A DNA stretch of 64,000 nucleotides, taken from positions 310,001 to 374,000 of the forward strand of contig NZ_JACYFG010000038.1 in assembly GCF_014803405.1 (NCBI RefSeq). Direction: 5' to 3'. The translations under genes and the position numbers were made by a program. The stretch is from Pelagicoccus enzymogenes (GTDB lineage: Bacteria > Verrucomicrobiota > Verrucomicrobiia > Opitutales > Opitutaceae). Of the stretch, positions 51,752 through 64,000 are shown piece by piece. Every line of letters starts with the position of its first letter. Position 1 is the stretch's first letter. A model generated the notes under the pieces. That model worked only from the letters and a program-made list of their open reading frames with translations. It was not told where the DNA came from and ran no database searches.

Positions 51752-52294
51752 TCAGGCAGCACTCTCATCAATTTCCAAATGCTGTCTTAACAGCCAGACC
51801 GGAACCCAAACAAACTCGGAAATGGTGACGCGTCCACCACGCTTCGAAGCATTTCTGACGCGCCGCGAGACGCTTCTAATCAATCTGTTTTTGTTATAGG
51901 CGAACTCTCTGAGCTGGTCAAAGTCTGCTAGCAACCAACGTTCGGAGTTTTCGCAGATCCAAAGTACCTTGTCGGTCACGGACGTTTTTCGGAAAGGCCA
52001 GCCGGGCTTACCGTTGCGTATGTCGTGCCACGTTTCGAGAGCAAGTGATGGAATTTTTTTCCGAAATGGATCTCGGCTAACAAGCTTAAGATCCACTTTG
52101 ATGATGCGACCGTCCTTGAGTTTTACCCAAAGGTCCGACCCGCGAATGTCCCACCAGGGAGTGGACCAGCCCCACTTCTCAAGCCCCGGGAATGCCTCGC
52201 GGAGGACCTTGCCGATGGGAAGTCGCTGCAAACGGCGAGCGGCCTCTTGTCTGTTTTTGTCGTAATTTACTACAGTTTTAGTGTTTAATGTCAT
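51752..52294 (-). CDS. Hypothetical protein, possible PD-(D/E)XK nuclease
   Basis: 180 residues. The segment WWDIRGSDLWVKLKDG then RIIKVDLKLVS contains an Asp followed about 14 residues later by D-x-K between two strands, which is the layout of a PD-(D/E)XK active site. The C-terminal part is Arg-rich with Trp pairs. It is divergent from the RHH-like gene at 52386, with a palindrome between them. No family is recognised, so the nuclease idea is weak inference. Confidence 0.55.
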   Translation of the reverse strand: MTLNTKTVVNYDKNRQEAARRLQRLPIGKVLREAFPGLEKWGWSTPWWDIRGSDLWVKLKDGRIIKVDLKLVSRDPFRKKIPSLALETWHDIRNGKPGWPFRKTSVTDKVLWICENSERWLLADFDQLREFAYNKNRLIRSVSRRVRNASKRGGRVTISEFVWVPVWLLRQHLEIDESAA

Positions 52295-52323
52295 GTGTTT
52301 TAAATTACGACATTTCTCTCAGA

Positions 52324-52340
52324 TGTTTTAACTTAAAACA
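52324..52340. promoter_or_regulatory. Operator-like palindrome between divergent genes
   Basis: TGTTTTAA-C-TTAAAACA is a perfect palindrome with 8-bp arms. A half-site TGTTTTAA also occurs at 52296-52303. TATACT follows at 52344-52349 and may be the -10 of the plus-strand gene. The RHH-like product at 52386 is a candidate binder. Confidence 0.55.
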
Positions 52341-52385
52341 AGATATACTTGATCTGAGAGTAGGCTGGAGCATTCCCTTAGAGCG

Positions 52386-52766
52386 ATGCCGCCGAAAAAA
52401 GGAAGCAAACCGCCGACAAAACTTTTTCATCTGCGGGTCGAACCAAAGCAGTGTGACGAGCTCGGAGAGATCGCTCGGACACTGCGATTGGACCAAACCC
52501 AGATAATTCGGGAGACCTTAAGATGCCTACCTGCGATCGAAACTGGAAAGCGCCACAAGGCGATTGAAGCCGCCGAAAGCTTCCCAAAGCTGAGAGGTTT
52601 GTCCGTCCAGATTGAACTCGAGACGCTCAAGATGCTAGGCGAGCGCTTGCCCGATCACGATACCAAGCTGCTCATCCGTCTCGCCCTGTACGTCGCGGTC
52701 GAGAACCTTCGCGGCTATGAACAGTTCTTCTGGCCGCCAGATCCTAACGATCTCTACTGGCCTTGA
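52386..52766 (+). CDS. RHH-like DNA-binding protein
   Basis: 126 residues. The N-terminal part (TKLFHLRVEPKQCDELGEIA then RTLRLDQTQIIRETLRCL) has the strand-helix-helix pattern of ribbon-helix-helix proteins. The rest is helical and ends in an aromatic tail (FFWPPDPNDLYWP). It is divergent from the 180-residue gene and may regulate both through the intervening palindrome. Partner unknown. Confidence 0.6.
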   Translation: MPPKKGSKPPTKLFHLRVEPKQCDELGEIARTLRLDQTQIIRETLRCLPAIETGKRHKAIEAAESFPKLRGLSVQIELETLKMLGERLPDHDTKLLIRLALYVAVENLRGYEQFFWPPDPNDLYWP

Positions 52767-52842
52767 TGCAAAAACAAATAACGTGAGACCGATTGCACTG
52801 TCGACCATCGGTTTAAAGTGTAACATAAACCCACTTCAACAC

Positions 52843-53016
52843 CTACCTGCAGACAGCTTCACCCAATACCCCCCGAGGCGGTCGCGGAACCTCAAGTTTA
52901 CGACACCACTTCCCAAACGCGACACTCGACACTCCGTATAGCTCCGCGAGCTTCGTTGCGGGCATCGACCAGATTAATCGATGCATCTCTTCGCGGGATA
53001 ACGAAGATAGCTCCAT
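52843..53016 (-). pseudogene. Small HTH gene with frameshift in a G6 run
   Basis: From ATG at 53016 the frame reads MELSSLSREEMHRLIW, then ATKLAELYGVSSVAFGKWCRKLEVPRPPRG, an HTH of the kind that usually continues as YWVKLSAG. Here a run of six G shifts the frame and the peptide ends VLGEAVCR at residue 57. With five G the protein would end YWVKLSAGRC, about 60 residues. The gene starts 4 bp after the metallopeptidase stop, so it belongs to the restriction operon. The shift may be a sequencing error, phase variation or decay. Confidence 0.6.
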
Positions 53017-53020
53017 CTTC

Positions 53021-53737
53021 CTAATAGCTCCACTCGCGGTGGCTCACCGGGATCCGGTTCAGCACCTTCCGGTGCTCCTTCCACTGTGGAACGAAGAGAT
53101 TCATCAGCGACTTGAAGCGGTCGTTGTGGGTTGGTTCGAGAAGGTGAACAGTTTCGTGGGCCACGATGTAGTCGAGGCACTCCTTCGGTTTCTTGGCTAG
53201 TTCAAGGTTAACGATCACTTTCGCCTTCTGTGGAATGCACGAGCCCCACTTGGTTTTCATCCTGCGAACTTGCCACTCGGATACTTCCACACCGATCGCT
53301 TTCTCCCATTTCGCGATCACAGATGGCAAGGCTTCCGAAAGCTGCTGGCGGTACCAAGCCTCCATGACTTGATGGCGCTTACCGTCGCTTGCTCCAGGAC
53401 GAGCGGTCAGGACGATCTTTCGATGTTTAACCTCGACCTTCGGCTTGGCGTCCACCTCCGCGAGCGACAGTAAATAACGCTTCCCCCACAGGTAGTGGCT
53501 CTCGCGCTCCAGATATTCGCGCTTCGGCTCACGCTTCTGAGCGTTCAGTCTTCGTTGTTGCTTCTTGATCCACGAGAGCTTCGAGAGCGCAAATATGCGG
53601 ATCGTGTCCATCTCCATCTCCGATGGAGCCGCGATGCGGATTCTTCCCGCTGGGGGATAGACGCTCAAGTGGACGTTCTTGATAGCCTTGCGTTCGACGT
53701 CCACCGACATGTCGCCGAGCTTCAAATGCTCAACCAT
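53021..53737 (-). CDS. YgjP/DUF45-type zinc metallopeptidase
   Basis: 238 residues from ATG at 53737 (an extension of 17 residues lies in hsdR). The zinc motif HETVH lies in YIVAHETVHLLEPTHNDRF, with the downstream Glu-region helix, and WGSC precedes it, as in the M48/SprT-like DUF45 family. N-terminal strands include VHLSVYPPAGRIRIAAP, also typical. It begins 1 bp after hsdR and is commonly found next to type I restriction genes; it may degrade or process HsdR. Confidence 0.93.
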   Translation of the reverse strand: MVEHLKLGDMSVDVERKAIKNVHLSVYPPAGRIRIAAPSEMEMDTIRIFALSKLSWIKKQQRRLNAQKREPKREYLERESHYLWGKRYLLSLAEVDAKPKVEVKHRKIVLTARPGASDGKRHQVMEAWYRQQLSEALPSVIAKWEKAIGVEVSEWQVRRMKTKWGSCIPQKAKVIVNLELAKKPKECLDYIVAHETVHLLEPTHNDRFKSLMNLFVPQWKEHRKVLNRIPVSHREWSY

Positions 53738-53738
53738 G

Positions 53739-56700
53739 CTAGTAATCCGTCTGTTGCTTGATGATAGGAAACATTCGTTCCACCTCATCTTGATTTTGCA
53801 GAATCGCGAACATTGCCGCTTTGATCATACGCTCCTTCGCTTCATGTCCACGCCAACCGTGCGGGCTGACCTGCTTAATCGTCTCATCGAGCCTTATGGC
53901 AAGGGCGGCAATCGGATCTACTCCCGCATTGTTCGCATAGTTTCCGGCAGCCTCGGAAGCCGCCTCTGACTTCAAGTTGTTGTAGAGCGCTCGCTGTCCC
54001 GGCGTCCGAAGAACCTCGGGCACATCGTTCGCGTCGCCAGACTGTACGCTCCTTGCGAGCTCGGCGATGCGCCTCAAATACTCCTCGTAGTCGATGGCTT
54101 TGCGGCGGCGAGCCGCGATGATTTCGTCTAGCAGCACCGACATGCGTTCGTAGTAGGCGGGATCGTTGAGATGCTCCTTGATGATGGTCTTCCGCACGTT
54201 GTTCTCGATTGCCTCCGCGACCGACTCCTGGCTCGCCCGCATGCCTTCCGGCATTTGGTTGATCGCATTCGCCATACCTGTCTTCACGATCAGGTCGATT
54301 AGGGGCATATCATCGAACGGCGAGATCTTTCGCGGTTCGTCTGCATCGATGTAGGTATCGATTAGGTGCCGCATGTCTGCTTCGTAGGCCTTGAGATCGA
54401 TTGTCTCGCCACTCGCTAGCCGGACTTCTTCACGAAGCTTCAGGTAGTGATCGATCTGTCGCTTGATCCGCTCTACATCACTCTCGCTGTAGCCCGCTGT
54501 ATCCATTTCGTCCGAAATGTTGGCGTAGGCTCTCACCAAACTGGCGACCCCTTTGTAGAGGGCCACCCGCTGAGGTTCCCGCTCCTCGAGATCGGCGGCG
54601 ATCTCCGTGTTACCACAAAAATACTGGATGTGGGCCAAGGTATCACGTGGAGCTCTGACCGGTTCACAAAGGAGAGATAATTGTTCGAGCGCCTCATCCA
54701 ATCGTTCGCTTCCCTTCTCCAAGCGCTCTTGTAGGACGATCTGCGGATCCCTGCTCTCACTGTCGCCGTCGTCGAGCTCCGAGGTGTATACCTCTATCGC
54801 GTTCTCCACTTTTCGAAACAGATCCTTGTAGTCGATGATGTATCCAAAATCCTTATCCTCTCCGTCCAAGCGATTCGTCCGGCAGATTGCTTGGAACAGT
54901 CCGTGGTCCTGCATCGACTTGTCGATGTAAAGGTAGGTACAGCTCGGCGCATCAAATCCTGTCAGCAGCTTGTCCACCACGATGAGCAGCTTCATGTTAG
55001 CGGGCTCCTTCTTGAAGCGACGCTTCACGTCATCTTCGAACGCTTCCGTTTTCGTCTGCCCGGGTCTGGCCGGCACATCCTTCAGAAGCTCTTGGTAGAG
55101 GTGATAGATGAACTCCTTTTCGGTTTCCGTGTTCGCGCCTGTGTCTTCCTTGTTGATGTCGCTCGTCTGAGGATTGTAGGAAGTCACCACCGCGCACTTA
55201 CCCCTAAACCCAGTGGACGCTTTGTTGAAAAGCTCGTAGTACTTGCAAGCCTCATAGATGCTGGAGGCTACCAGCATGGCGTTCCCGCGTTGGTTGCTGA
55301 GCCGTCGTTTGGTTCCAAAATCGAACAGGATATCGCTCACCACCCGTTCCATGCGCGACCGTGAGCTCAGCACCTTTTGCATCGTTCCCCATTGCTCGCG
55401 AAGGGCCGATCTTTGCCACTCGTTCAAGCCCCGCGTCTTGGCTTCAAACCAAGCATCAACCTTCTCTGTCGAGCCAAGCCTTTGGTCGATGTCCCGGGCT
55501 TCGTAGACGAGATCGAGCACTACCTCGTCCACCACCGCCTCCGCGAACTTGTAAGTGTGTATGTATCTTCCGAATACTTCCAAACTCGTTTGCTTGTCCT
55601 TCTTCAGCAGAGGGGTGCCGGTAAATCCGATGAAAACCGACTTCGGCAGCAAAGCCTTCATCGTACGATGCAGCTTGCCGCTCTGCGTACGGTGACACTC
55701 GTCCACGAATACGAACAACTCGCCCACCGCGGGACTTGGTTGCTCCTCCAGCTCCCGGATAAACGTGTCAAAGTTGTCCACGTCCTTCTTGCCGAACTTG
55801 TGCACCAGAGAGCAAATCAGGCGAGGCTTGGGTTGGGAAAGCTGAGCCATCAAGTCCTTGCCGCTTCGCGTTCGGTAGATTTTCTCTCCTGCGTCGGCGA
55901 AGACGCCTTCGATCTGTTTGTCCAGCTCGTCACGGTCCGTGATCACCGCAACCCGCGCGTTTGGATTATTCTCCAAGGTCCACTTGGCGAGCATTACCAT
56001 GACGATGCTTTTGCCGCTTCCTTGGGTGTGCCAGATGATTCCTCCGTCTTTGCGGCGAATGAACTTCTGAGCCTCCTTAATGCCAAAGTACTGGTGATGG
56101 CGCGGCACCTTTTTGATCCCGCCATCAAAGAGAATGAAGTCGTAGACCAGCTCGAGCAGTCTTCGCTTGTCGCAAAGCTTCAGCAGGTACTTGTCCAGCT
56201 TGTAGCGGCTATTGTCCGACTCTTCTTCCTTCCAGGACAGAAAATACTTCTCCTCGGTACCAACCGTTCCGTAGCGCAGTCCTTCCGTGTCATTGCCTGC
56301 CATCACCAGCTGGATGGTAGTAAAGAACTGTTCTATGAATTCCGGCTGCTGGTTCGTAATGTTCTGTCGGATACCATCGCTAATCGACTTTCGGCTGTTC
56401 TTCAGCTCAATCACGCCTAGGGCGATCCCATTCACGTAAAGCACCAAATCGGGACGTTTCTCGTGCCTGCCGTAGACTGTGACCTCTTCGGCGATGCCGA
56501 AATCGTTCTCCTCCGGATTATCCCAATCGATCAGCTTAACCGTTTCCGTGTTCTGACCTGCCTCGGCCTTCACCTGTACTCCGTACCGCAGAAGCGAATA
56601 CACTTCTTTGTTGTTCTCGTACAGTAGACGCCCCCTGTGAGTAGTCTCACGTTTCAAGGTTTCGATAGCCCGGCTGATTTGCTCGTTGCGATAGCCCGCC

Positions 56701-56849
56701 TTCGTCAGATAGTCGCCAAGGAACGCCTCTTCGACATTGCTGTTGCCTGCTCGATCCTGCCAATGGCCAAGGTAGCGGTATTTCAGCTCATTGACGAATA
56801 GTTCAACAACGCGGTCCTGGGTTTTTCGTTCTGCTTGGCCTATGGTCAT
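53739..56849 (-). CDS. hsdR: Type I restriction enzyme R subunit
   Basis: 1036 residues from ATG at 56849 (an upstream extension of 40 residues is not family-like). The nuclease domain has RPDLVLYVNGIALGVIELKNS with the D...ExK site. The helicase motor has Walker A WHTQGSGKS, DECH in FVDECHRTQSG, motif III GFTGTPL and motif VI QAICRTNR. It drives ATP-dependent DNA translocation and cleaves unmodified DNA with HsdM and HsdS. It is separated from hsdS by four other genes, which is unusual. Confidence 0.97.
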   Translation of the reverse strand: MTIGQAERKTQDRVVELFVNELKYRYLGHWQDRAGNSNVEEAFLGDYLTKAGYRNEQISRAIETLKRETTHRGRLLYENNKEVYSLLRYGVQVKAEAGQNTETVKLIDWDNPEENDFGIAEEVTVYGRHEKRPDLVLYVNGIALGVIELKNSRKSISDGIRQNITNQQPEFIEQFFTTIQLVMAGNDTEGLRYGTVGTEEKYFLSWKEEESDNSRYKLDKYLLKLCDKRRLLELVYDFILFDGGIKKVPRHHQYFGIKEAQKFIRRKDGGIIWHTQGSGKSIVMVMLAKWTLENNPNARVAVITDRDELDKQIEGVFADAGEKIYRTRSGKDLMAQLSQPKPRLICSLVHKFGKKDVDNFDTFIRELEEQPSPAVGELFVFVDECHRTQSGKLHRTMKALLPKSVFIGFTGTPLLKKDKQTSLEVFGRYIHTYKFAEAVVDEVVLDLVYEARDIDQRLGSTEKVDAWFEAKTRGLNEWQRSALREQWGTMQKVLSSRSRMERVVSDILFDFGTKRRLSNQRGNAMLVASSIYEACKYYELFNKASTGFRGKCAVVTSYNPQTSDINKEDTGANTETEKEFIYHLYQELLKDVPARPGQTKTEAFEDDVKRRFKKEPANMKLLIVVDKLLTGFDAPSCTYLYIDKSMQDHGLFQAICRTNRLDGEDKDFGYIIDYKDLFRKVENAIEVYTSELDDGDSESRDPQIVLQERLEKGSERLDEALEQLSLLCEPVRAPRDTLAHIQYFCGNTEIAADLEEREPQRVALYKGVASLVRAYANISDEMDTAGYSESDVERIKRQIDHYLKLREEVRLASGETIDLKAYEADMRHLIDTYIDADEPRKISPFDDMPLIDLIVKTGMANAINQMPEGMRASQESVAEAIENNVRKTIIKEHLNDPAYYERMSVLLDEIIAARRRKAIDYEEYLRRIAELARSVQSGDANDVPEVLRTPGQRALYNNLKSEAASEAAGNYANNAGVDPIAALAIRLDETIKQVSPHGWRGHEAKERMIKAAMFAILQNQDEVERMFPIIKQQTDY

Positions 56850-56959
56850 AACTTGGGGTGGAGGATTGACAAATTGCGTCGTTTGTTTGTTCTTGTGGCT
56901 TACCGGTGGTTGAAATTCGGCTCCATGCCGTGTGTTTCGGGTCTTTTGGCCAGTGAAAC

Positions 56960-57799
56960 CTATACCCACCGGTTTTTTATTTTCTGAGGGTCGGGTGGAG
57001 CCGCCTTACGCGTTAGATAGGTTCCGTAAGCTTTACCATCTGGATCGTCGGCGTCGATGATCAGCGATACTTTGTGCCAGATTGCCCGCAAGAACCGCGA
57101 CTCTCCTCGCTCGTAGCAACGTTGCAATGCCCAGAGGCAATAGTCAGCCACTTGAAGGCATGGAGAGAGCCATGGATAGCTCGGACAGATTTCAAGCTCC
57201 CCTTCGTGATTGATCTCTCTTTCGGACAGAAACCGTTGCTTTGTCTTCAGCAATTCTACCTTGAGGGCTTTGGTGCGGTCCGATTTGCCACGTCGGGCGA
57301 AACAGATTCGATAACGATCCAGCTTGTGTAGACGCTGCTTGAAGAGCATCCGGACGGTGAAGTCATACAATTCGTTAGGATGGTAGCGGTAGTCGGAGTC
57401 CATGCGGTTTCGGCTTTCTACATACTCAAGGACCTTTCGCATGTCCTTGATCACTGCGAAAAACTTGAAATCTAGCTCTACCAGTAACTCGAACACTTTC
57501 GCTCGGATTTCGGGATGGTCATCCTTCGCATGAAAGGCCCGAGCTGTCTTCTTTGCTTCCGGTTGAACTGAAGGAATCGTCGAGTACAAAGGATTACTAA
57601 GGAGTGAATGGCGTAGCTGCTCGAGTTTGCGGGTTGTAGCCGACTCATCAAGACACTCGATCATTCCGAGCATGAAAAACTTGCTGGCAGCTTCGTCGTT
57701 CAACCGATTCCGCCCTTTGGGACCGAACAACACGCCATCCCCCGCTTCATCGACGAAGTAGCTTGTTTCCTTGGTAGAGTCTATGCCTGTTTCGCTCAC
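56960..57799 (-). CDS. DUF3800 family protein
   Basis: 279 residues. The signature YFVDEAGDGVLF near the N-terminus and LQVADYCLWALQR near residue 220 match the RNase H-like DUF3800 family, in which the acidic residues are probably catalytic. DUF3800 genes are common in defence islands and mobile elements. The gene overlaps the upstream nuclease gene by 4 bp and ends about 110 bp before the hsdR start, so it is part of the operon. Biochemical activity in this family is poorly known. Confidence 0.88.
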   Translation of the reverse strand: MSETGIDSTKETSYFVDEAGDGVLFGPKGRNRLNDEAASKFFMLGMIECLDESATTRKLEQLRHSLLSNPLYSTIPSVQPEAKKTARAFHAKDDHPEIRAKVFELLVELDFKFFAVIKDMRKVLEYVESRNRMDSDYRYHPNELYDFTVRMLFKQRLHKLDRYRICFARRGKSDRTKALKVELLKTKQRFLSEREINHEGELEICPSYPWLSPCLQVADYCLWALQRCYERGESRFLRAIWHKVSLIIDADDPDGKAYGTYLTRKAAPPDPQKIKNRWV

Positions 57800-58728
57800 G
57801 AATCCTTAAGCAGCTGGAAGCTTACTTTGTAACGGTAAAAGTCTATGTTCGTCGCCGCTCTTAGGGCACGGCGGAGCTTGAGGTCGTCCTCAAGAGCGAT
57901 GATCACGCCGCGTACGGTTTGATGTGGCTCAGCGAGTTCATCCATTGCGTAGCCCATGTAGCGTTGTATCTGGCCAACGACTACATCGCTGGCTCGGCCA
58001 CGCTTGAGCTCGATGATGAGTATCTCCTTCTGATCCTTGCTGACCGCAAGGATGTCGATCGGTCCCGTGTCGCTCGGATACTGCTGGCCTTTGACTTCGC
58101 CATCTTCAGAGTAGATGTCGTAGTTCTTGCCGAGATCCGTGTATTGCCAATTGGCCACGAGAAAGTCTTCGAGGTGCTTCTCCAGGGCGAACACCGATGG
58201 GTCTTCGACCGTCTCATCGGAAACGATTATGTCTGGCTTAACAGCTCGACCACCAATCAGCTTTTCAAGCTCCTCCGCATATCCAGTGATGTCGCAACAG
58301 GTTCCCGTTGAATTGGTAGAGCGCTGCAGGGCTTCGCTCATATCTGCCCGGTCGAAGAGATCGCTGTACCAAGTGATTGATCGTCGATGAGGCAAGATGT
58401 CGTCGGGAACGTAGTAATAAGGCCCCGTGATTTCGCCCGCTCGGTAACGTCCTGAACCGTTGGGGGTGATGATCACGTCACCTTCCTTGAGGCCTTTGCT
58501 CATTGTCCAGGTGAAGCCGCAGGCCAATCCCGCCGCGATGGCACTCTTGCCCGGATGTTTCTCCAAGTAGATCGGCCTAAACTCCTTGTTGAATTCACGC
58601 CAATTATCAGGGAGCCGTCCCGTAAGGTCCTCGCGGATACCGTAGTCGACTCCGATAAATCCTTCCTTGTAGCAGCGATCCGAATACACACTTTGCTGCC
58701 CAGCCATGACTCTATTGTAGGATTTCAT
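57796..58728 (-). CDS. NucS-like PD-(D/E)XK nuclease with N-terminal reader-like domain
   Basis: 310 residues from the ATG at 58728; 58707 is an alternative. Residues about 70-140 have GDVIITPNGSGRYRAGEITGPYYY and HRRSITWY, a beta-rich module like those fused to Mrr or McrB-type restriction enzymes, possibly a PUA/EVE-like reader. The C-terminal domain has TGPIDILAVSKDQKEILIIELKRG with D...ExK, followed by VVGQIQRYMGYA, as in NucS/DUF91. It may cut modified or branched DNA. The gene overlaps the DUF3800 gene by 4 bp. Confidence 0.82.
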   Translation of the reverse strand: MKSYNRVMAGQQSVYSDRCYKEGFIGVDYGIREDLTGRLPDNWREFNKEFRPIYLEKHPGKSAIAAGLACGFTWTMSKGLKEGDVIITPNGSGRYRAGEITGPYYYVPDDILPHRRSITWYSDLFDRADMSEALQRSTNSTGTCCDITGYAEELEKLIGGRAVKPDIIVSDETVEDPSVFALEKHLEDFLVANWQYTDLGKNYDIYSEDGEVKGQQYPSDTGPIDILAVSKDQKEILIIELKRGRASDVVVGQIQRYMGYAMDELAEPHQTVRGVIIALEDDLKLRRALRAATNIDFYRYKVSFQLLKDS

Positions 58729-58735
58729 GCGAATT

Positions 58736-59806
58736 CTAAACTTTCCAAATTGCTGGATCCGCCTGCACGAATTCACTAAGATAGTCGAATGAATGGACTT
58801 TAGTGGTGCTATGCATTCCTCGCTGCAGCGCCGATCTCAACCTCCTTCTTGCGATCCTATCAGGATTGACTATTACGAGAGAACCAATTGCGTCTTTTTT
58901 TACGCCGAATCGCAGCAGGGCTTCTGCATGTTGGTCACTTGGCGGTAGTGAGTATCCAATTACAACAACTCGACTGGCCGAACGAAGATCCTTGTATGCA
59001 TTCTTCATTACGTTTCCTATGATACCGTCATCGTCATAAGCCTTCGAGGATTCAGGAGGGATGATCTTGAATCGCATATCTCCCCCTCTTGGGTTTGCAT
59101 ACGGTCTTTGTTTTAAGCTGATTTCATCGCCTGAAACCATGAAGTGCAGGGAGCCATGTACTTTGTGCACCCGAATCGAAGCATCTTTACGATTGGGCTC
59201 AAGCGACTCTGGCGTCCATGCTTCATGCCCAGCTAAACCTTTACCTTTTGCCTTGAGCTTGAAACCATACCCGTAGTGAGCATCCCACTTTCCCTTTCCT
59301 TTGCGGGCGAGAGAGTCATCCAAAACACAATCGTAGTTAAAATTGATAAACGCATCGCCGGGTTCAGCTAAGTCGCTCACCAATTTGTCATGCCACGTGC
59401 ATTCACGAGTTCTGTAGCTTCCGGTTCCTCCGTCCTTAACTTCCGTCAAGGACTCTCCGAGTATTAAGGCAATTGATTGTTCAAGGTCTTTCCTTAGGGC
59501 GACTACTTTCTGATGAACCTGCTTATCTTCTTGCCCCAAGTGTTGAGACAACCGCTCTGCATGCTCAAAATGACAAAACACTTGCTCCATGCTGAGAACG
59601 AAATTGGTACCAAACCATTCCGTCAGGCCTGAAATTAGCCGGTTTATTCTATCCGCATGACATCTGTTTGAAACACGCTGAAGCTGGGTAAAGAAGTCTC
59701 CATCCAAGGGAGGCAAGCAGCGACCCTGATTTTTCATCTTGGCTACGAATGAGCAGCCACGCGTCGCACCCGCTCCTAGAATGAAAACTGTCTTGCCTTT
59801 GCTCAT
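58736..59806 (-). CDS. SIR2-like NADase/defence protein
   Basis: 356 residues from the ATG at 59806. The N-terminal nucleotide site VFILGAGATRGCSF, then INFNYDCVLDDSL and KVHGSLHFMV, match SIR2-like (SIR2_2) domains, with His in the last motif as a probable catalytic residue. A Rossmann-like VVVIGYSLPPSDQHAEALL near the C-terminus is also typical. SIR2 proteins in antiphage systems deplete NAD+. The ATG overlaps the stop of a 3' remnant of hsdS (ATGA), indicating former coupling to an hsdS gene. Confidence 0.87.
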   Translation of the reverse strand: MSKGKTVFILGAGATRGCSFVAKMKNQGRCLPPLDGDFFTQLQRVSNRCHADRINRLISGLTEWFGTNFVLSMEQVFCHFEHAERLSQHLGQEDKQVHQKVVALRKDLEQSIALILGESLTEVKDGGTGSYRTRECTWHDKLVSDLAEPGDAFINFNYDCVLDDSLARKGKGKWDAHYGYGFKLKAKGKGLAGHEAWTPESLEPNRKDASIRVHKVHGSLHFMVSGDEISLKQRPYANPRGGDMRFKIIPPESSKAYDDDGIIGNVMKNAYKDLRSASRVVVIGYSLPPSDQHAEALLRFGVKKDAIGSLVIVNPDRIARRRLRSALQRGMHSTTKVHSFDYLSEFVQADPAIWKV

Positions 59807-59855
59807 ACCAATCGCGTCTTGCCGGTTAGGAGTTCTTGCATCATGCCTTGCCGGG
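59803..59855 (-). pseudogene. 3' remnant of an older hsdS allele
   Basis: On the minus strand this segment encodes RQGMMQELLTGKTRLV followed by TGA, matching residues near the C-terminus of the intact HsdS (KQGMMQELLTGKTRLV). Fifteen consecutive amino acids are identical, while 10 of 15 codons differ, all synonymously. It is therefore a diverged homologue rather than a recent duplication. Its stop overlaps the SIR2 ATG. Confidence 0.85.
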
Positions 59856-59857
59856 AG

Positions 59858-59893
59858 CAATGGATAGTGGAAAATTGATAATGGATAGTTTGG
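59858..59893 (+). repeat. Left heptamer-repeat tract of the cassette
   Basis: Four degenerate heptamers on the plus strand followed by GTTTGG. It is the inverted counterpart of 60259-60295, with the two central units swapped. Confidence 0.7.
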
Positions 59894-59900
59894 GTTGAGG

Positions 59901-60251
59901 TCATTGGGAGCGGGAGGTTTTGACGATGCTGATCAGGAGTTTGAGTAGTTCCTCGATGTCGGGGTGGAGCAAGTCGTAGTCCTTAGTGGCGATGTAGTCT
60001 GACTGGTGCAGCAGATCGATCCAGTACTCGGTTTCGTTGGCTTCCTTGAGGGCGATGCTCATCTTGCTAACAAAGTCCGCCCGACTTTGAGCATGTTCGG
60101 ACTCTCGAACCAAAGCACCAATCGCTGTCCCGCTCCGCAAGACTTGCTTCGACAGCACAAACTCCCGCTTCTCTTCCTGCAGGTATTTCGCCAATTTCAC
60201 GATACGCAAGGCAAACACGAACGACTTATCCTTAACCACATTCTCCTTCAT
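59901..60251 (-). CDS. Four-helix-bundle protein (23S intervening-sequence type)
   Basis: 116 residues, all helical. The patterns LRIVKLAKYLQEEK, LSKQVLRSGTAIGALVRE and MSIALKEANETEYWIDLL are typical of the S23/IVP family (TIGR02436) found in rRNA intervening sequences and in many defence loci. The biochemical role is unknown; some members sit between hsdS and hsdR genes as this one does. It lies in a cassette with heptamer repeats on both sides and has its own start within 10 bp of the right tract. Confidence 0.93.
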   Translation of the reverse strand: MKENVVKDKSFVFALRIVKLAKYLQEEKREFVLSKQVLRSGTAIGALVRESEHAQSRADFVSKMSIALKEANETEYWIDLLHQSDYIATKDYDLLHPDIEELLKLLISIVKTSRSQ

Positions 60252-60258
60252 CGCGTAT

Positions 60259-60295
60259 CCAAATTATCCATTCTCCACTATCAATTATCCATTTG
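60259..60295 (-). repeat. Right heptamer-repeat tract of the cassette
   Basis: Read on the minus strand it has four degenerate heptamers then ATTTGG, ending 8 bp before the four-helix-bundle ATG. It overlaps the last codons and TAA stop of hsdS. The TTTGGATAC word at 60255-60263 (minus) overlaps its edge. Confidence 0.7.
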
Positions 60296-61481
60296 ATGCA
60301 GGAGCGACTAGACGGGTCTTACCCGTCAAGAGCTCCTGCATCATCCCTTGCTTGAGTTGGCGGGCTTTGGAGAGCTTGGCTTCGAGGGCGACGATTTCCT
60401 CGTCCATGTCGCTGAGCGTTTCGGCGATGGCGGTTTGCTCATGGAGCTGCGGCAAAAAGATTTCTAGGTTCTCAACGTCCTTATGAGAGAGGTGTTTCAC
60501 TGTCGTGCCAGAGATTGTCGATTCAAGCTTTTCCATTGGCTTGCGAAGTGCGTAATAAAGATATCCGCGGTCCACCTCACGACCATTATGTATACGCCCA
60601 ACCCGCTGATTGAGCAGAGAATCTTCAGCATCCCATAGCTTGAGCAAAAACTCACCGTCCATTCCGACGAGGAGATCTCCTTTCCTAACAATAAAGTTCT
60701 CGGAGTATTCGCCCGCATAATACAGCTTTTGTTCGACTGACTTTAAATCTCGATTCCGAATCAAACGAAAGCCGCTGGCAGACTCTGAAAAGCCAGCCGA
60801 TGAGAACGGAAATCCAACTTGAAGCCTTACCTTGCCATAGAGCGATTGCTCAGTCCATTCACCGGAGAAGCCGGGGAGGCGTTTTTTGCCGGTGAGGAGT
60901 TGCTGCATGGCGCCTTGTTTGATTTGGCGTTTTTTGGCGATGAGTTGCTCCAGGGATTCAATGAGGGCATCCGCATCGCTTAAGGCCTCGGCGATGGCTT
61001 CTTGTTCGGCTTTGGTGGGCGGGAGGGGGACGACAAGCGGGGTTATGTGCTTGTTGTTAATTTGTGGAATCGAAGTCGTATCAGCGATTCGCCAAAGCTC
61101 TAGGTGTTTTAGGGCATAAAACAGGTATTCGGAGTCTATCGTTTCATCAACGGTCAGTGACATCAGGTTGGTGTCGAAGAACGAATCCTCCGAAAGGATC
61201 CTTACTTTGTTTAGAAGGATGGATGCTCCTCTCTTGGGAAAGATTATGCTACCTTTGGGGACACGTTTCGAACTGCGAACTCGGTAAGGAGATTCTTTAA
61301 TAAACTTTTCGCCGAGATTGAGTTGGTCTACTTTGAAATAAGGGATGCCGTTGGAATCGAATTTTTGAAGAGACGGGCTATCGCCGCTCTTTATCACGAC
61401 GTGAGGTCCGAGTTGAGCATCTTTCCAGTCCTCCGGTATTTTGCCAACTTCAGTTTGCTTGTATCCAGTTTTTACTGCCAT
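60285..61481 (-). CDS. hsdS: Type I restriction enzyme S subunit
   Basis: 398 residues. Two target-recognition domains (about 15-160 and 210-350) are each followed by a conserved helical region: AIAEALSDADALIESLEQLI..KQGAMQQLLTGKKRL and AIAETLSDMDEEIVALEAKL..KQGMMQELLTGKTRLV (split here). The half repeats set the spacing between the two half-sites. It determines DNA sequence specificity and docks to two HsdM. The last six residues (APASNG) lie at the cassette junction and are unlike the family end. The start overlaps hsdM by 10 bp. Confidence 0.97.
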   Translation of the reverse strand: MAVKTGYKQTEVGKIPEDWKDAQLGPHVVIKSGDSPSLQKFDSNGIPYFKVDQLNLGEKFIKESPYRVRSSKRVPKGSIIFPKRGASILLNKVRILSEDSFFDTNLMSLTVDETIDSEYLFYALKHLELWRIADTTSIPQINNKHITPLVVPLPPTKAEQEAIAEALSDADALIESLEQLIAKKRQIKQGAMQQLLTGKKRLPGFSGEWTEQSLYGKVRLQVGFPFSSAGFSESASGFRLIRNRDLKSVEQKLYYAGEYSENFIVRKGDLLVGMDGEFLLKLWDAEDSLLNQRVGRIHNGREVDRGYLYYALRKPMEKLESTISGTTVKHLSHKDVENLEIFLPQLHEQTAIAETLSDMDEEIVALEAKLSKARQLKQGMMQELLTGKTRLVAPASNG

Positions 61482-64000
61482 GCGAAGCCCATCCTTTCTA
61501 GGTGCTGGCTGACTTTGGACTCTAGGTCGCCGACGCGGGTGGTGAGTTCGGGAAGCGGTTGGGCGTAGCGTTCGGCGAGGTCATTGACGCGATGGGTGAG
61601 GCTTTGGCTGATGCGGTCGGTTTCGCCGTGGATGGCGGTCGCAAGTGCGGCAAGCCACTTGTCGTCGACGACGAGCGTCTTGATGTCGTCGGAAGTGAGC
61701 TTGGCGTAGTGATCGAGGGCCAGAGCATCGAGTTCGGTCTCGGCTTGCTTGATTTGCTTTTTGAGGGCGGTTTCCTCTTCGGAGGATTCGAGGTAGGCGA
61801 GCAAGGCGTTGGCTTCGTCGGTGGGGGTGTCGGAGCCGTAGGTGGCGGGGGACTCGGCGGCTGCTAGTAGATCGGGTTGTTGCGGCGGTCTCGGCGATGC
61901 CGCCCTACCTTTTATGCCTAACTCTTTGAGTCGGGCGGTGACAGCGGCTTTGTTGACCTTGTCCATTTCGGAGAAGGCGCCGTCGTCGCCGCTGTGTTCT
62001 TCTTCGAGTTCGGCGAGGCGGGCGGTGGCGGCTTCGAGTTGGGACTGAAGGGTGGCGAGCTCGGATTGCTCGGAGGCGAAGTAGCGGGCGACGACCAGCT
62101 CCTTGGGCACGAGCTCGCAGGTCCATCCTTTGTCCACGGTCTGGCCCTTCTTTTTGCCTTTTGTAATTTCTTCTAGGATACGCTCCGGCTTGGCAATCCA
62201 GCCGTCTTGGGTGATGAGGTAGCAGTCGTCCTGCATAGTCGTCTCCCAGAAATCCATGAGGTGTTGGTACACGTCGTAGCGATCGATGAGCGGCGTGGCG
62301 GCGTAGTGCTCGAGCAGGTCTTCCGAGAGCTCGTGGATGAGGGTCTTGGGATGGAAACCGGGATCGAGCTGTTTGAGCTGGGTGGAGGCTTTGTTTCGCC
62401 AGGCGTCGAAGTGTTTCTCGAGGGAGGCGATGAAGGCGGAGAACTCGGCGTGCTCTTGGATGGAGGTCTTGATGGACTCGGGAGCGACGGCGAGGTCGAG
62501 GTAGTTGGCTCGGTTGGCCTTGAAAAGGCTTTGCTTGAGGCTGGGGCAGACTTGCCAGTAGCGGTCGAGGGCGTCGATGTCGCGCTGGGGGATGCCGCCG
62601 CGGAGGTGGGCCTCGATGTCCTGAATGTCCTCCTTGGCTTGGCTGTCGATGTAGCGCGGGAGATTGAGGTTGAAGTCGTTTTTCTCGATCTCCTCGAAGG
62701 GGACTTCGCGGGCGTAGCCGGGCAGCGCGATCCGTTTCTTGAATACGTCTACGATCTTGTGGATGTCCATGCTGCGGAGGCGGTTCTTGTTGCCGTCCTT
62801 CATGAAGCCGGAGGAGGCATCGATCATGAAGATGGGGCGACGCTCCCGGGCCTGCTCCTTGTCGAGCACGATGATGCAGGCGGGAATGCCGGTGCCGTAG
62901 AAAAGGTTGGCGGGGAGTCCGATGATGCCGGCGAGGATGCCACGCTTGACCAGCTCGCGCCGAATGGCGGCCTCGGCATTGCCGCGGAAGAGCACGCCGT
63001 GCGGGAGAATGCAGGCCCCCTTGGCGGTGGACTTCATGGAGCGCACGATGTGCAGGAGGTAGGCGTAGTCGCCCTGCTTAGCGGGTGGGACGCCGAAGCC
63101 GTCGAAGCGATGGAAGTTGCGGGAGGCTTGGTCGACGCTGTCGCTGTCGGCCGGCACCCCTATCTCGTCGGGATGGAGGCCACTGGTCCAGCGCTTGTCG
63201 CTGAAGGGAGGATTGGCGACCACGAAGTCGAAGGTCTGCAGGGCGTCGCCGTGGAGGAACTTGGGATTGGCGAGGGTATTGCCCGGACGCACGGTAGCGG
63301 TTGGCCGGTCGTGCAGAATCATGTTCATGCGAGCCAGCTGGGCGGTGGTGGAATCCTTTTCCTGTCCGTAGATGGTGATGTCGGAATCCGCCTCGCCTGC
63401 GACTTTGAGCAGCAAGGAGCCCGAGCCGCAAGTCGGGTCGTACACGGTGGTGGCGTTGGTCGTCTGGGCTTCGTGGATACCGAGGATGGCGGCCATGACA
63501 CGGCTGACTTCGGCGGGGGTATAGAACTGGCCCTTGGACTTGCCGCTCTCGGTGGCGAAGTGCCGCATGAGGTACTCGTAGGCGTCGCCGAGAATGTCGT
63601 CGCCTTCGGCCCGGTTCTTGGAGAAATCGAGCTCCTTCTTCTGGAAGATGGAGATGAGGTTGGTGAGGCGGTCGACGATCTCCTTGCCGGAGCCCAGCTT
63701 GTTGGCGTCGTTGAAGTCCGGGAAGTCCGCTTGGGAAAGCTGCTCGTTGGCGGCGGCCAGCGGGGCGATGATGCGCTTGTTGATCTGGTCTCCGATGTCG
63801 GTCTTGCCCTTGAGCTTGACCATGTCGGCGAAGCTGGAGCCGTCCGGAATGACGATGGGAGCGTACGGCTGACCGGCGTACTTGTCGGAGATGTATTTCA
63901 GGAAGAGCAGCACCAGCACGTAGTCCTTGTACTGGGAGGCGTCCATGCCGCCGCGCAACTCGTCGCAGCTCTGCCAAAGGGAGGAGTAAAGTTCGGATTT
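61472..64000 (-). CDS. hsdM: Type I restriction enzyme M subunit (5' end outside window)
   Basis: 843 codons are visible and the frame is open at the right edge; an internal ATG at 63958 is not the true start because the preceding codons (LWQSCDELRGG) are HsdM-like. The SAM-binding motif is DPTCGSGSLLLKV and the catalytic NPPF is in VVANPPFSDKRW. The C-terminal third is long, with coiled coils and the segment at 61882-61909 that derives from a REP-like repeat. N6-adenine methyltransferase of the complex. It is longer than EcoKI HsdM (529). Confidence 0.96.
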   Translation of the reverse strand, partial: KSELYSSLWQSCDELRGGMDASQYKDYVLVLLFLKYISDKYAGQPYAPIVIPDGSSFADMVKLKGKTDIGDQINKRIIAPLAAANEQLSQADFPDFNDANKLGSGKEIVDRLTNLISIFQKKELDFSKNRAEGDDILGDAYEYLMRHFATESGKSKGQFYTPAEVSRVMAAILGIHEAQTTNATTVYDPTCGSGSLLLKVAGEADSDITIYGQEKDSTTAQLARMNMILHDRPTATVRPGNTLANPKFLHGDALQTFDFVVANPPFSDKRWTSGLHPDEIGVPADSDSVDQASRNFHRFDGFGVPPAKQGDYAYLLHIVRSMKSTAKGACILPHGVLFRGNAEAAIRRELVKRGILAGIIGLPANLFYGTGIPACIIVLDKEQARERRPIFMIDASSGFMKDGNKNRLRSMDIHKIVDVFKKRIALPGYAREVPFEEIEKNDFNLNLPRYIDSQAKEDIQDIEAHLRGGIPQRDIDALDRYWQVCPSLKQSLFKANRANYLDLAVAPESIKTSIQEHAEFSAFIASLEKHFDAWRNKASTQLKQLDPGFHPKTLIHELSEDLLEHYAATPLIDRYDVYQHLMDFWETTMQDDCYLITQDGWIAKPERILEEITKGKKKGQTVDKGWTCELVPKELVVARYFASEQSELATLQSQLEAATARLAELEEEHSGDDGAFSEMDKVNKAAVTARLKELGIKGRAASPRPPQQPDLLAAAESPATYGSDTPTDEANALLAYLESSEEETALKKQIKQAETELDALALDHYAKLTSDDIKTLVVDDKWLAALATAIHGETDRISQSLTHRVNDLAERYAQPLPELTTRVGDLESKVSQHLERMGFAWQ
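61882..61909. repeat. REP-like palindrome inside hsdM
   Basis: GCGGCGG(TC) and GCCGCCC form a hairpin with the tail CCTACC. The end GCCGCCCTAC is shared with 25572-25587. It is translated as GRAASPRPPQ in HsdM without disturbing the frame, between two charged helices, as if inserted there. Confidence 0.5.

Follow-up and report, generated by a model that had tools for sequence, protein, structure and literature searches.

The 64,000-nucleotide stretch of Pelagicoccus enzymogenes DNA analysed here, referred to as the window, carries on its minus strand an operon with the gene order hsdM (61472-63958), hsdS (60285-61481; PF01420 match), IVP, SIR2_2-like, NucS/PDC-S02-like, DUF3800 and hsdR. The IVP gene (59901..60251) encodes a four-helix-bundle protein of 116 aa from the 23S rRNA intervening-sequence family. 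The hsdS protein ends in QGMMQELLTGKTRLVAPASNG, and a second QGMMQELLTGKTRLV followed by a stop is encoded at 59803-59850, where the TGA overlaps the ATG of the SIR2 gene (59806) as ATGA. The stops of the two hsdS ends lie 482 bp apart, and the copies themselves, a 39-nt repeat with 79% identity, lie 500 bp apart. This duplication, noted in a preliminary description of the locus, is real: all 15 residues of QGMMQELLTGKTRLV are equal in the two copies and 10 of the 15 codons differ, the fifteenth being CAA in both. When the whole window was scanned in six frames, the full match occurred at these two sites only; the next best site, a central repeat of hsdS, reached 11/15 residues and the one after it 5/15, so that the duplicated hsdS end is not a matter of chance.

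Between the copies, the IVP gene (PF05635, E 4.8e-27; TIGR02436, E 3.2e-29) is flanked by two 35-nt inverted arms, 80% complementary to each other and built as arrays of 7-nt units. The left arm (60259..60293) contains the present stop of hsdS (60285-60287). The right arm, the inverted array (59859..59893), is open in the frame of SIR2 and in that of ORF33 (59803..59904), a predicted open reading frame (ORF) of 33 codons encoding MTSTQTIHYQFSTIHCSRQGMMQELLTGKTRLV. The arms pair in a predicted RNA fold (z -3.1), and no Rfam match at gathering score was obtained in 59500-60700. Both junctions carry the direct repeat GCAAGG.ATGATGCA (14/15 nt), which makes the exact position of the break uncertain within the repeat. 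Domain matches of the IVP protein were confined to PF05635 in Pfam and to TIGR02436 plus two weak hypothetical-protein models in NCBIfam; its best match in the PDB is an uncharacterized protein (2rld_A, E 2.6e-42).

A native hsdS body with a foreign tail

With the 101 C-terminal residues of HsdS as query, 41 of 252 genomes of the family gave matches. L163 and L164, which matched best apart from the window itself, are hsdS genes of the same genus without the cassette and served as references. Before codons KQG (GCAAGG at 60346-60351), the window hsdS (native part, 60346..61481) is identical to each of them at 89/90 nt; further upstream it diverges from both, as expected of the target domains. 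Beyond KQG, the copy attached to hsdS (MMQELLTGKTRLVAPASNG, 60285..60345) shares 28/42 nt with L163 and 29/42 nt with L164, and the stranded copy (59803..59851, GCAAGG ... GTATGA) shares 34/42 and 39/42 nt, respectively. L163 and L164 themselves agree at 90/90 nt before the break and at 37/42 nt after it. Comparing 60 nt of body (59/60 identical) with 42 nt of tail, Fisher's test yielded p = 9e-6 and 3e-5 for the two references, and the stranded copy was closer to L164 than the attached one (p = 0.011).

The window thus displays a native hsdS body, a foreign tail attached to it, the array-IVP-array core and a native tail stranded downstream, all directly observed. A native body with a foreign attached tail and a native stranded tail argues for an insertion that came with a replacement end, not for a swap of the allele. 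The preliminary description had correctly recognised the SIR2-side segment as an old hsdS 3' end left behind and the two ends as diverged versions, and hsdS probably did run straight into SIR2. Its proposal that the specificity gene had been exchanged did not hold, as the 90 nt before the break are native and the last 16-19 codons alone are foreign. Near-identical DNA in the two copies, which it had named as a refuting outcome, was not seen, and a target-site duplication alone was rejected since the copies are too diverged. The other such outcome, a conserved SIR2 leader occurring without hsdS, was not seen either, although no separate search was made for it; this candidate was rejected because the segment is the native hsdS end. 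Taken together, it is likely that an IVP cassette of 500 bp entered a native hsdS gene, carrying a replacement tail and leaving the native tail stranded before SIR2.

Related cassettes in other hosts

Relatives of the IVP protein were collected from genome contigs, and the best 80 of 508 were taken as a sample of the closest ones. Among these, the closest relatives belong to other lineages, namely Accumulibacter (79-81% identity) and L034 (Pirellula), L035 and L049 (72-74%). Eight of the sampled loci, the window included, have an hsdS tail of the QELLTG type before the IVP gene. A scan for protein duplicates was swamped by low-complexity frames, and L001, L049, L010 and L037 were taken further.

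Three of the carriers belong to Accumulibacter (L192, L193 and L196, the same loci as L032, L033 and L031). Their hsdS bodies match the nearest native gene, L194, at 68-69/72 nt, and all three tails do so at 14-15/27 nt (p = 4e-6 to 2e-5; 7 natives). Here as in L049, a native body with a foreign tail was observed directly. The three hsdS genes differ considerably before the tail (120-136/300 aa identical), and no stranded tail was seen within 1500 nt downstream. TTA leucine codons, which are used in these tails, account for 3-6 of 268-329 leucine codons in the loci, tails counted. L049, from Chloroflexota, is closest to the window in layout: a tail AGMMSVLLSGQLRVYSGE with its stop, the IVP cassette and then a stranded QGMMQELLTGRVRLV with its stop follow each other, and the 22 nt before the break are identical in both copies, which diverge thereafter.

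The remaining carriers vary in what adjoins the cassette. The tail of L035 (Acidobacteriota) shares a 22-nt core with that of L032, and downstream there is just a short TRLV with a stop overlapping the next ATG. In L034, the IVP gene lies between hsdS and an hsdR-like start. The cassette of L037 (Brocadia), together with the hsdS tail KQGMMQNLLTGKTRLIEN, is located inside hsdR; the native hsdR start was left upstream, where it matches the starts in L207, L208 and L214. As a different hsdR start follows the cassette, more than an hsdS tail came in at this locus. The gene between hsdS and hsdR or before hsdR in L037, L207, L208, L214 and L049 is presumably a RAYT (REP-associated transposase). 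A single conserved tail in all carriers was considered and rejected: a long shared run (22 nt) links only L032 and L035, which come from different phyla. The longest run shared by native tails was 17 nt in 161 cross-group pairs and 23 nt among all 435 pairs, with 27 instead of 33 nt compared.

The attached tail of the window forms a hairpin (60294..60343) with arms of 12 bp (60332-60343/60294-60305) and 7 bp (60321-60327/60311-60317). Folded as DNA, this tail reached -23.2 kcal/mol compared to -6.7 for shuffled sequences (z -7.8); the stranded tail did not fold beyond chance (z 1.0). Native tails for comparison numbered 25, namely 23 from the 29 loci L163-L191 (six of which lack a matching tail) and the two stranded tails. 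Perfect stems of at least 7 bp in 48-nt windows occurred in 6/8 cassette tails, a set that includes the three non-independent Accumulibacter tails, compared to 0/25 native tails and 0/7 Accumulibacter natives. Cassette and the 25 native tails differed in stem length (Mann-Whitney p = 1.5e-4), z (1.2e-4) and energy (0.046). With uniform random synonymous codons, the observed stem was reached once in 1500 trials for the window and for L031, never for L032 or L035, 20 times for L033 and 8 times for L037. A hairpin is a feature of most, not all, replacement tails.

Two further loci have a doubled or compound structure. In L010, the end of hsdM is doubled around the IVP cassette, upstream and at +101 to +230 downstream, and the stranded hsdM copy contains a repeat that we take to be REP-like. 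Downstream of the IVP gene in L080, an hsdR-like 5' fragment is followed by an array-only element without IVP, possibly a non-autonomous form, and then by another hsdR-like start. Some hsdR and hsdS assignments in L066, L080 and L105 were made by reading, without a family search.

Arrays, downstream coupling and distribution

A survey of cassettes started from 149 IVP loci; removal of 9 repeats left 140, of which 136 were distinct and 135 could be measured (L157-L161, mentioned below, stand outside this set). Among lags 4-11, lag 7 was the strongest in 123/135 right flanks and 105/135 left flanks, and 7-nt periodic inverted arrays surround nearly all IVP genes (L001-L110, L118-L146, L156), whatever the host or the array sequence. 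Cyanobacterial STRRs (short tandemly repeated repetitive sequences) are another setting with abundant 7-nt repeats. All three reading frames are closed in the left flank of 81/135 loci and in the right flank of 26/135, a difference that was marked on 50-nt flanks (paired Wilcoxon, 3e-13). Much of it is due to base composition (mean frames closed: left 2.45 observed vs 2.22 shuffled, right 1.52 vs 1.78). At six more loci (L060, L066, L074, L084, L092 and L105), the frame of another type of hsdS end runs on into the array, which provides its last residues and its stop; the hsdS match was found by tblastn in L060, L074, L084 and L092 and read by eye in L066 and L105.

On the other side of the cassette, ORF33 starts in overlap with the IVP stop (ATGA), reads through the right array in the frame of hsdS, includes the stranded tail and ends in overlap with the SIR2 start (ATGA). 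L049 shows an ORF33-like layout with a GTG start and without overlap into the next gene. In L037 and, as judged by eye, in L031/L033, an ORF that begins at the IVP stop crosses the array and enters hsdR or a gene that we take to be AlbA_2-like. In 30/135 loci, a start codon overlaps the IVP stop and opens an ORF that extends at least 45 nt beyond it. Of 103 loci with a long downstream ORF on the same strand, 59 keep its frame open upstream to beyond the IVP stop, barely above the half expected from open right flanks; because about half of the frames in right flanks are open, openness by itself is weak evidence for coupling. At L213, L217 and L218, hsdR loci through which L157-L159 were covered, a start that overlaps the IVP stop puts the right array in frame with hsdR, and hsdR may thus have an array-coded N-terminus (MIKNNSPFTTHHSSLSSVGK... 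in L213).

The SIR2_2-like gene (58736..59806) matched PF13289 at E 4.1e-5 with 24.1 bits, slightly below the cut-off of 24.5, and the PADLOC models Aga_SIR2 (1.3e-6) and SIR2 (3e-6). The gene at 57796-58776 matched the candidate defence family PDC-S02 (E 1.6e-150); together with SIR2 and DUF3800_VII it makes up a defence-like cluster within the type I operon. SIR2 matches were found in 7/252 family genomes, the one of the window included, and none in plasmids; four of the six other SIR2 loci were read by eye and had no hsdS end beside SIR2. The preliminary description had predicted that an ancestral hsdS would end as ATGA. Such ends do occur in relatives (at least 8/28, and 4/7 in another set), but chance alone also often places an A before TGA.

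IVP matches are present in 183/252 family genomes, and the P. enzymogenes genome has a single one at E 0.001, that of the window. Plasmids yielded 25 records, all below 60% identity, and no IVP relative was confirmed in viral contigs. Close relatives (E 1e-38) were found in 1/201 genomes of the order of L049, the starting genome itself, and in 2/300 of the Accumulibacter order, the starting genome included; both orders together added one new locus, L161. Within the order of L037, 5/62 genomes had a match at E 1e-30 (L157-L160 among them). On an IVP tree of 140 rows, the eight tail carriers require 3 changes compared to a mean of 7.9 after shuffling (0/500 as low); 71/134 inner branches of this tree are poorly supported and near-copies contribute to the clustering. 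This clustering, the relatives in other lineages and the single IVP match in the genome fit an IVP lineage that is associated with hsdS ends and arrived horizontally.

Competing explanations and known systems

According to the insertion reading, the cassette would have entered the native hsdS 10-13 codons before its stop, bringing along a synonymously different version of the last codons. As the incoming tail continues in frame into the left array of 7-nt units and meets a stop there, HsdS stays full length, and the native tail would have been pushed downstream, between the cassette and SIR2. The left junction may have been made by recombination within the conserved codons KQGMMQE, as suggested by breaks at this place in three host lineages (the window, L049 and Accumulibacter) and by the start of the L037 hsdS tail there. 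Once transcribed, the arrays may form a paired stem such as that of 23S rRNA intervening sequences, and ORF33 might allow ribosomes leaving IVP to reach SIR2.

A number of observations weigh against this reading. When L163 is taken as the reference, the advantage of the stranded over the attached copy is not significant (34 vs 28/42 nt, p = 0.21), and an empty hsdS-SIR2 site, as predicted in the preliminary description, was not found by the SIR2 search of 252 family genomes, with four of the six other SIR2 loci read, or by that of plasmids. The core of the replacement tail, with up to 3 mismatches, is absent from the other 182 genomes of a class sample (its own genome being the only one of 183), and no donor was found among them. 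Pfam and NCBIfam scans recognised no recombinase encoded by the cassette. A stranded hsdS tail with the motif exists in 2/8 carriers only, the window and L049 (1500 nt downstream). Among 21 pairs of native Accumulibacter genes, bodies agree at 48-66/72 nt and tails at 16-24/27 nt, showing that hsdS tails vary more than bodies anyway; the carrier tails (14-15/27) are barely outside this range, and the contrast is real but smaller than the Fisher p suggests. Moreover, the three Accumulibacter cases may represent one event. The window tail shares 12-17/33 nt with those of the other carriers, a likeness so low that the tails may be chance captures. Finally, no long stem is present in L034 or L049, where random codons reached the observed stem in 1338/1500 and 354/1500 trials, nothing unusual.

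Some of these points bear on a different history, which we rate at somewhat less than an even chance: donor DNA from another operon, in which IVP and a further gene stood behind an hsdS end, underwent recombination at the conserved codons of hsdS and was joined illegitimately at its other end, so that no dedicated element was involved and the IVP cassette was a passenger. The breaks within KQGMMQE, the differing tails, the stranded tail in just two of the eight carriers and the different hsdR start gained by L037 besides its hsdS tail speak for this history. However, in L035 and L049 as in the window, the other end too adjoins the right array, and such IVP genes stand behind hsdS in several phyla. 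Passenger transfer opposes the element alone and not the native/foreign/native arrangement, and the probabilities given for it and for the insertion reading overlap. We regard it as improbable that the insertion duplicated the native tail and that selection, either favouring a hairpin or acting against recombination of the two copies, later rewrote the attached one. The repeat GCAAGG.ATGATGCA on both sides, stems beyond codon chance and a tail core unique to this genome in the class sample speak for such rewriting; it would, however, have had to change 10/15 codons without a residue change while the adjoining body changed at 1/90 nt, with all 15 residues kept in the stranded copy. Replacement of the whole hsdS allele by recombination, leaving the old C-terminus behind, draws on the target domains, which lie upstream of the conserved stretch and do differ between the window, L163 and L164. 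It is largely contradicted by the native 90 nt adjoining the tail, with the tail alone being foreign, and by the similar situation in Accumulibacter and L049, and we consider it very unlikely. The draft assembly consists of 60 contigs, but an assembly artefact or chance similarity can practically be dismissed: L049, an unrelated assembly, has a closely similar architecture, Accumulibacter has the native body with a foreign tail, and the six-frame scan excludes chance.

The insertion reading has partial precedents, compared here with the excerpted portions of the papers cited. Mobile ORFs of fungal mitochondria (in atp6, atp9, cox2 and nad3) are described there as bringing in a foreign C-terminus and stranding the native one, the two atp6 ends being 63.5% identical in DNA and 91% in protein (PMC3630166). 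The window hsdS resembles them in being native up to the break, with a foreign tail in phase and the native tail downstream. Unlike these organelle homing endonucleases, its ORF is an IVP gene in a bacterial restriction operon, surrounded by 7-nt arrays, and no homing endonuclease domain was found in the protein (Pfam, NCBIfam). 23S rRNA intervening sequences with an IVP/S23 ORF (428 nt in Coxiella) are located in rRNA helix 9, 25 or 45, are excised by RNase III and have a patchy distribution that has been interpreted as horizontal transfer; what IVP proteins do and whether they are mobile is called unsettled there (PMC4990558). They share the PF05635/TIGR02436 protein, terminal inverted repeats and a similar size with the window cassette, which differs in lying between hsdS and SIR2 in a protein operon and in carrying a gene end.

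The Avd protein of diversity-generating retroelements is reported to resemble PF05635 (PMC10053308), and the target of these elements is a gene 3' end with a nearby 7-10 bp hairpin of which the stem structure, not the sequence, matters (PMC3240598, in the part available). The window likewise has a PF05635 protein and a hairpin at a gene 3' end, but its loops are not GRNA and the hairpin lies inside the coding tail. No reverse transcriptase was found among the 10 proteins scanned (51752-63958), with the rest of the genome and template/variable repeats not searched. Compared to an integrase-type island in a gene 3' end, the insert has a 14/15-nt direct repeat but no integrase: the IVP gene, its sole sense-strand ORF above 60 aa, has no integrase domain. 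Abundant 7-nt repeats have been described in other settings (PMC4679880, in part). Full-text literature searches, with most subscription journals outside their coverage, returned no account of IVP cassettes that carry a replacement for the end of a gene.

A far-reaching and rather doubtful extension would be that IVP cassettes form a widespread class of mobile elements, related to the Avd side of diversity-generating retroelements and able to recognise or create a hairpin where genes end; the 7-nt arrays would act as a direction-dependent translation switch and the recoded end would repair the host gene, so that insertion into an operon costs little. For IVP cassettes outside rRNA, the locus offers a testable anatomy: arrays of 7-nt units, in some cases a hairpin-bearing replacement for a gene end, and a following gene that may be coupled to the cassette. 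A further caution is that the final codons of hsdS can differ in their history from the remainder of the gene.

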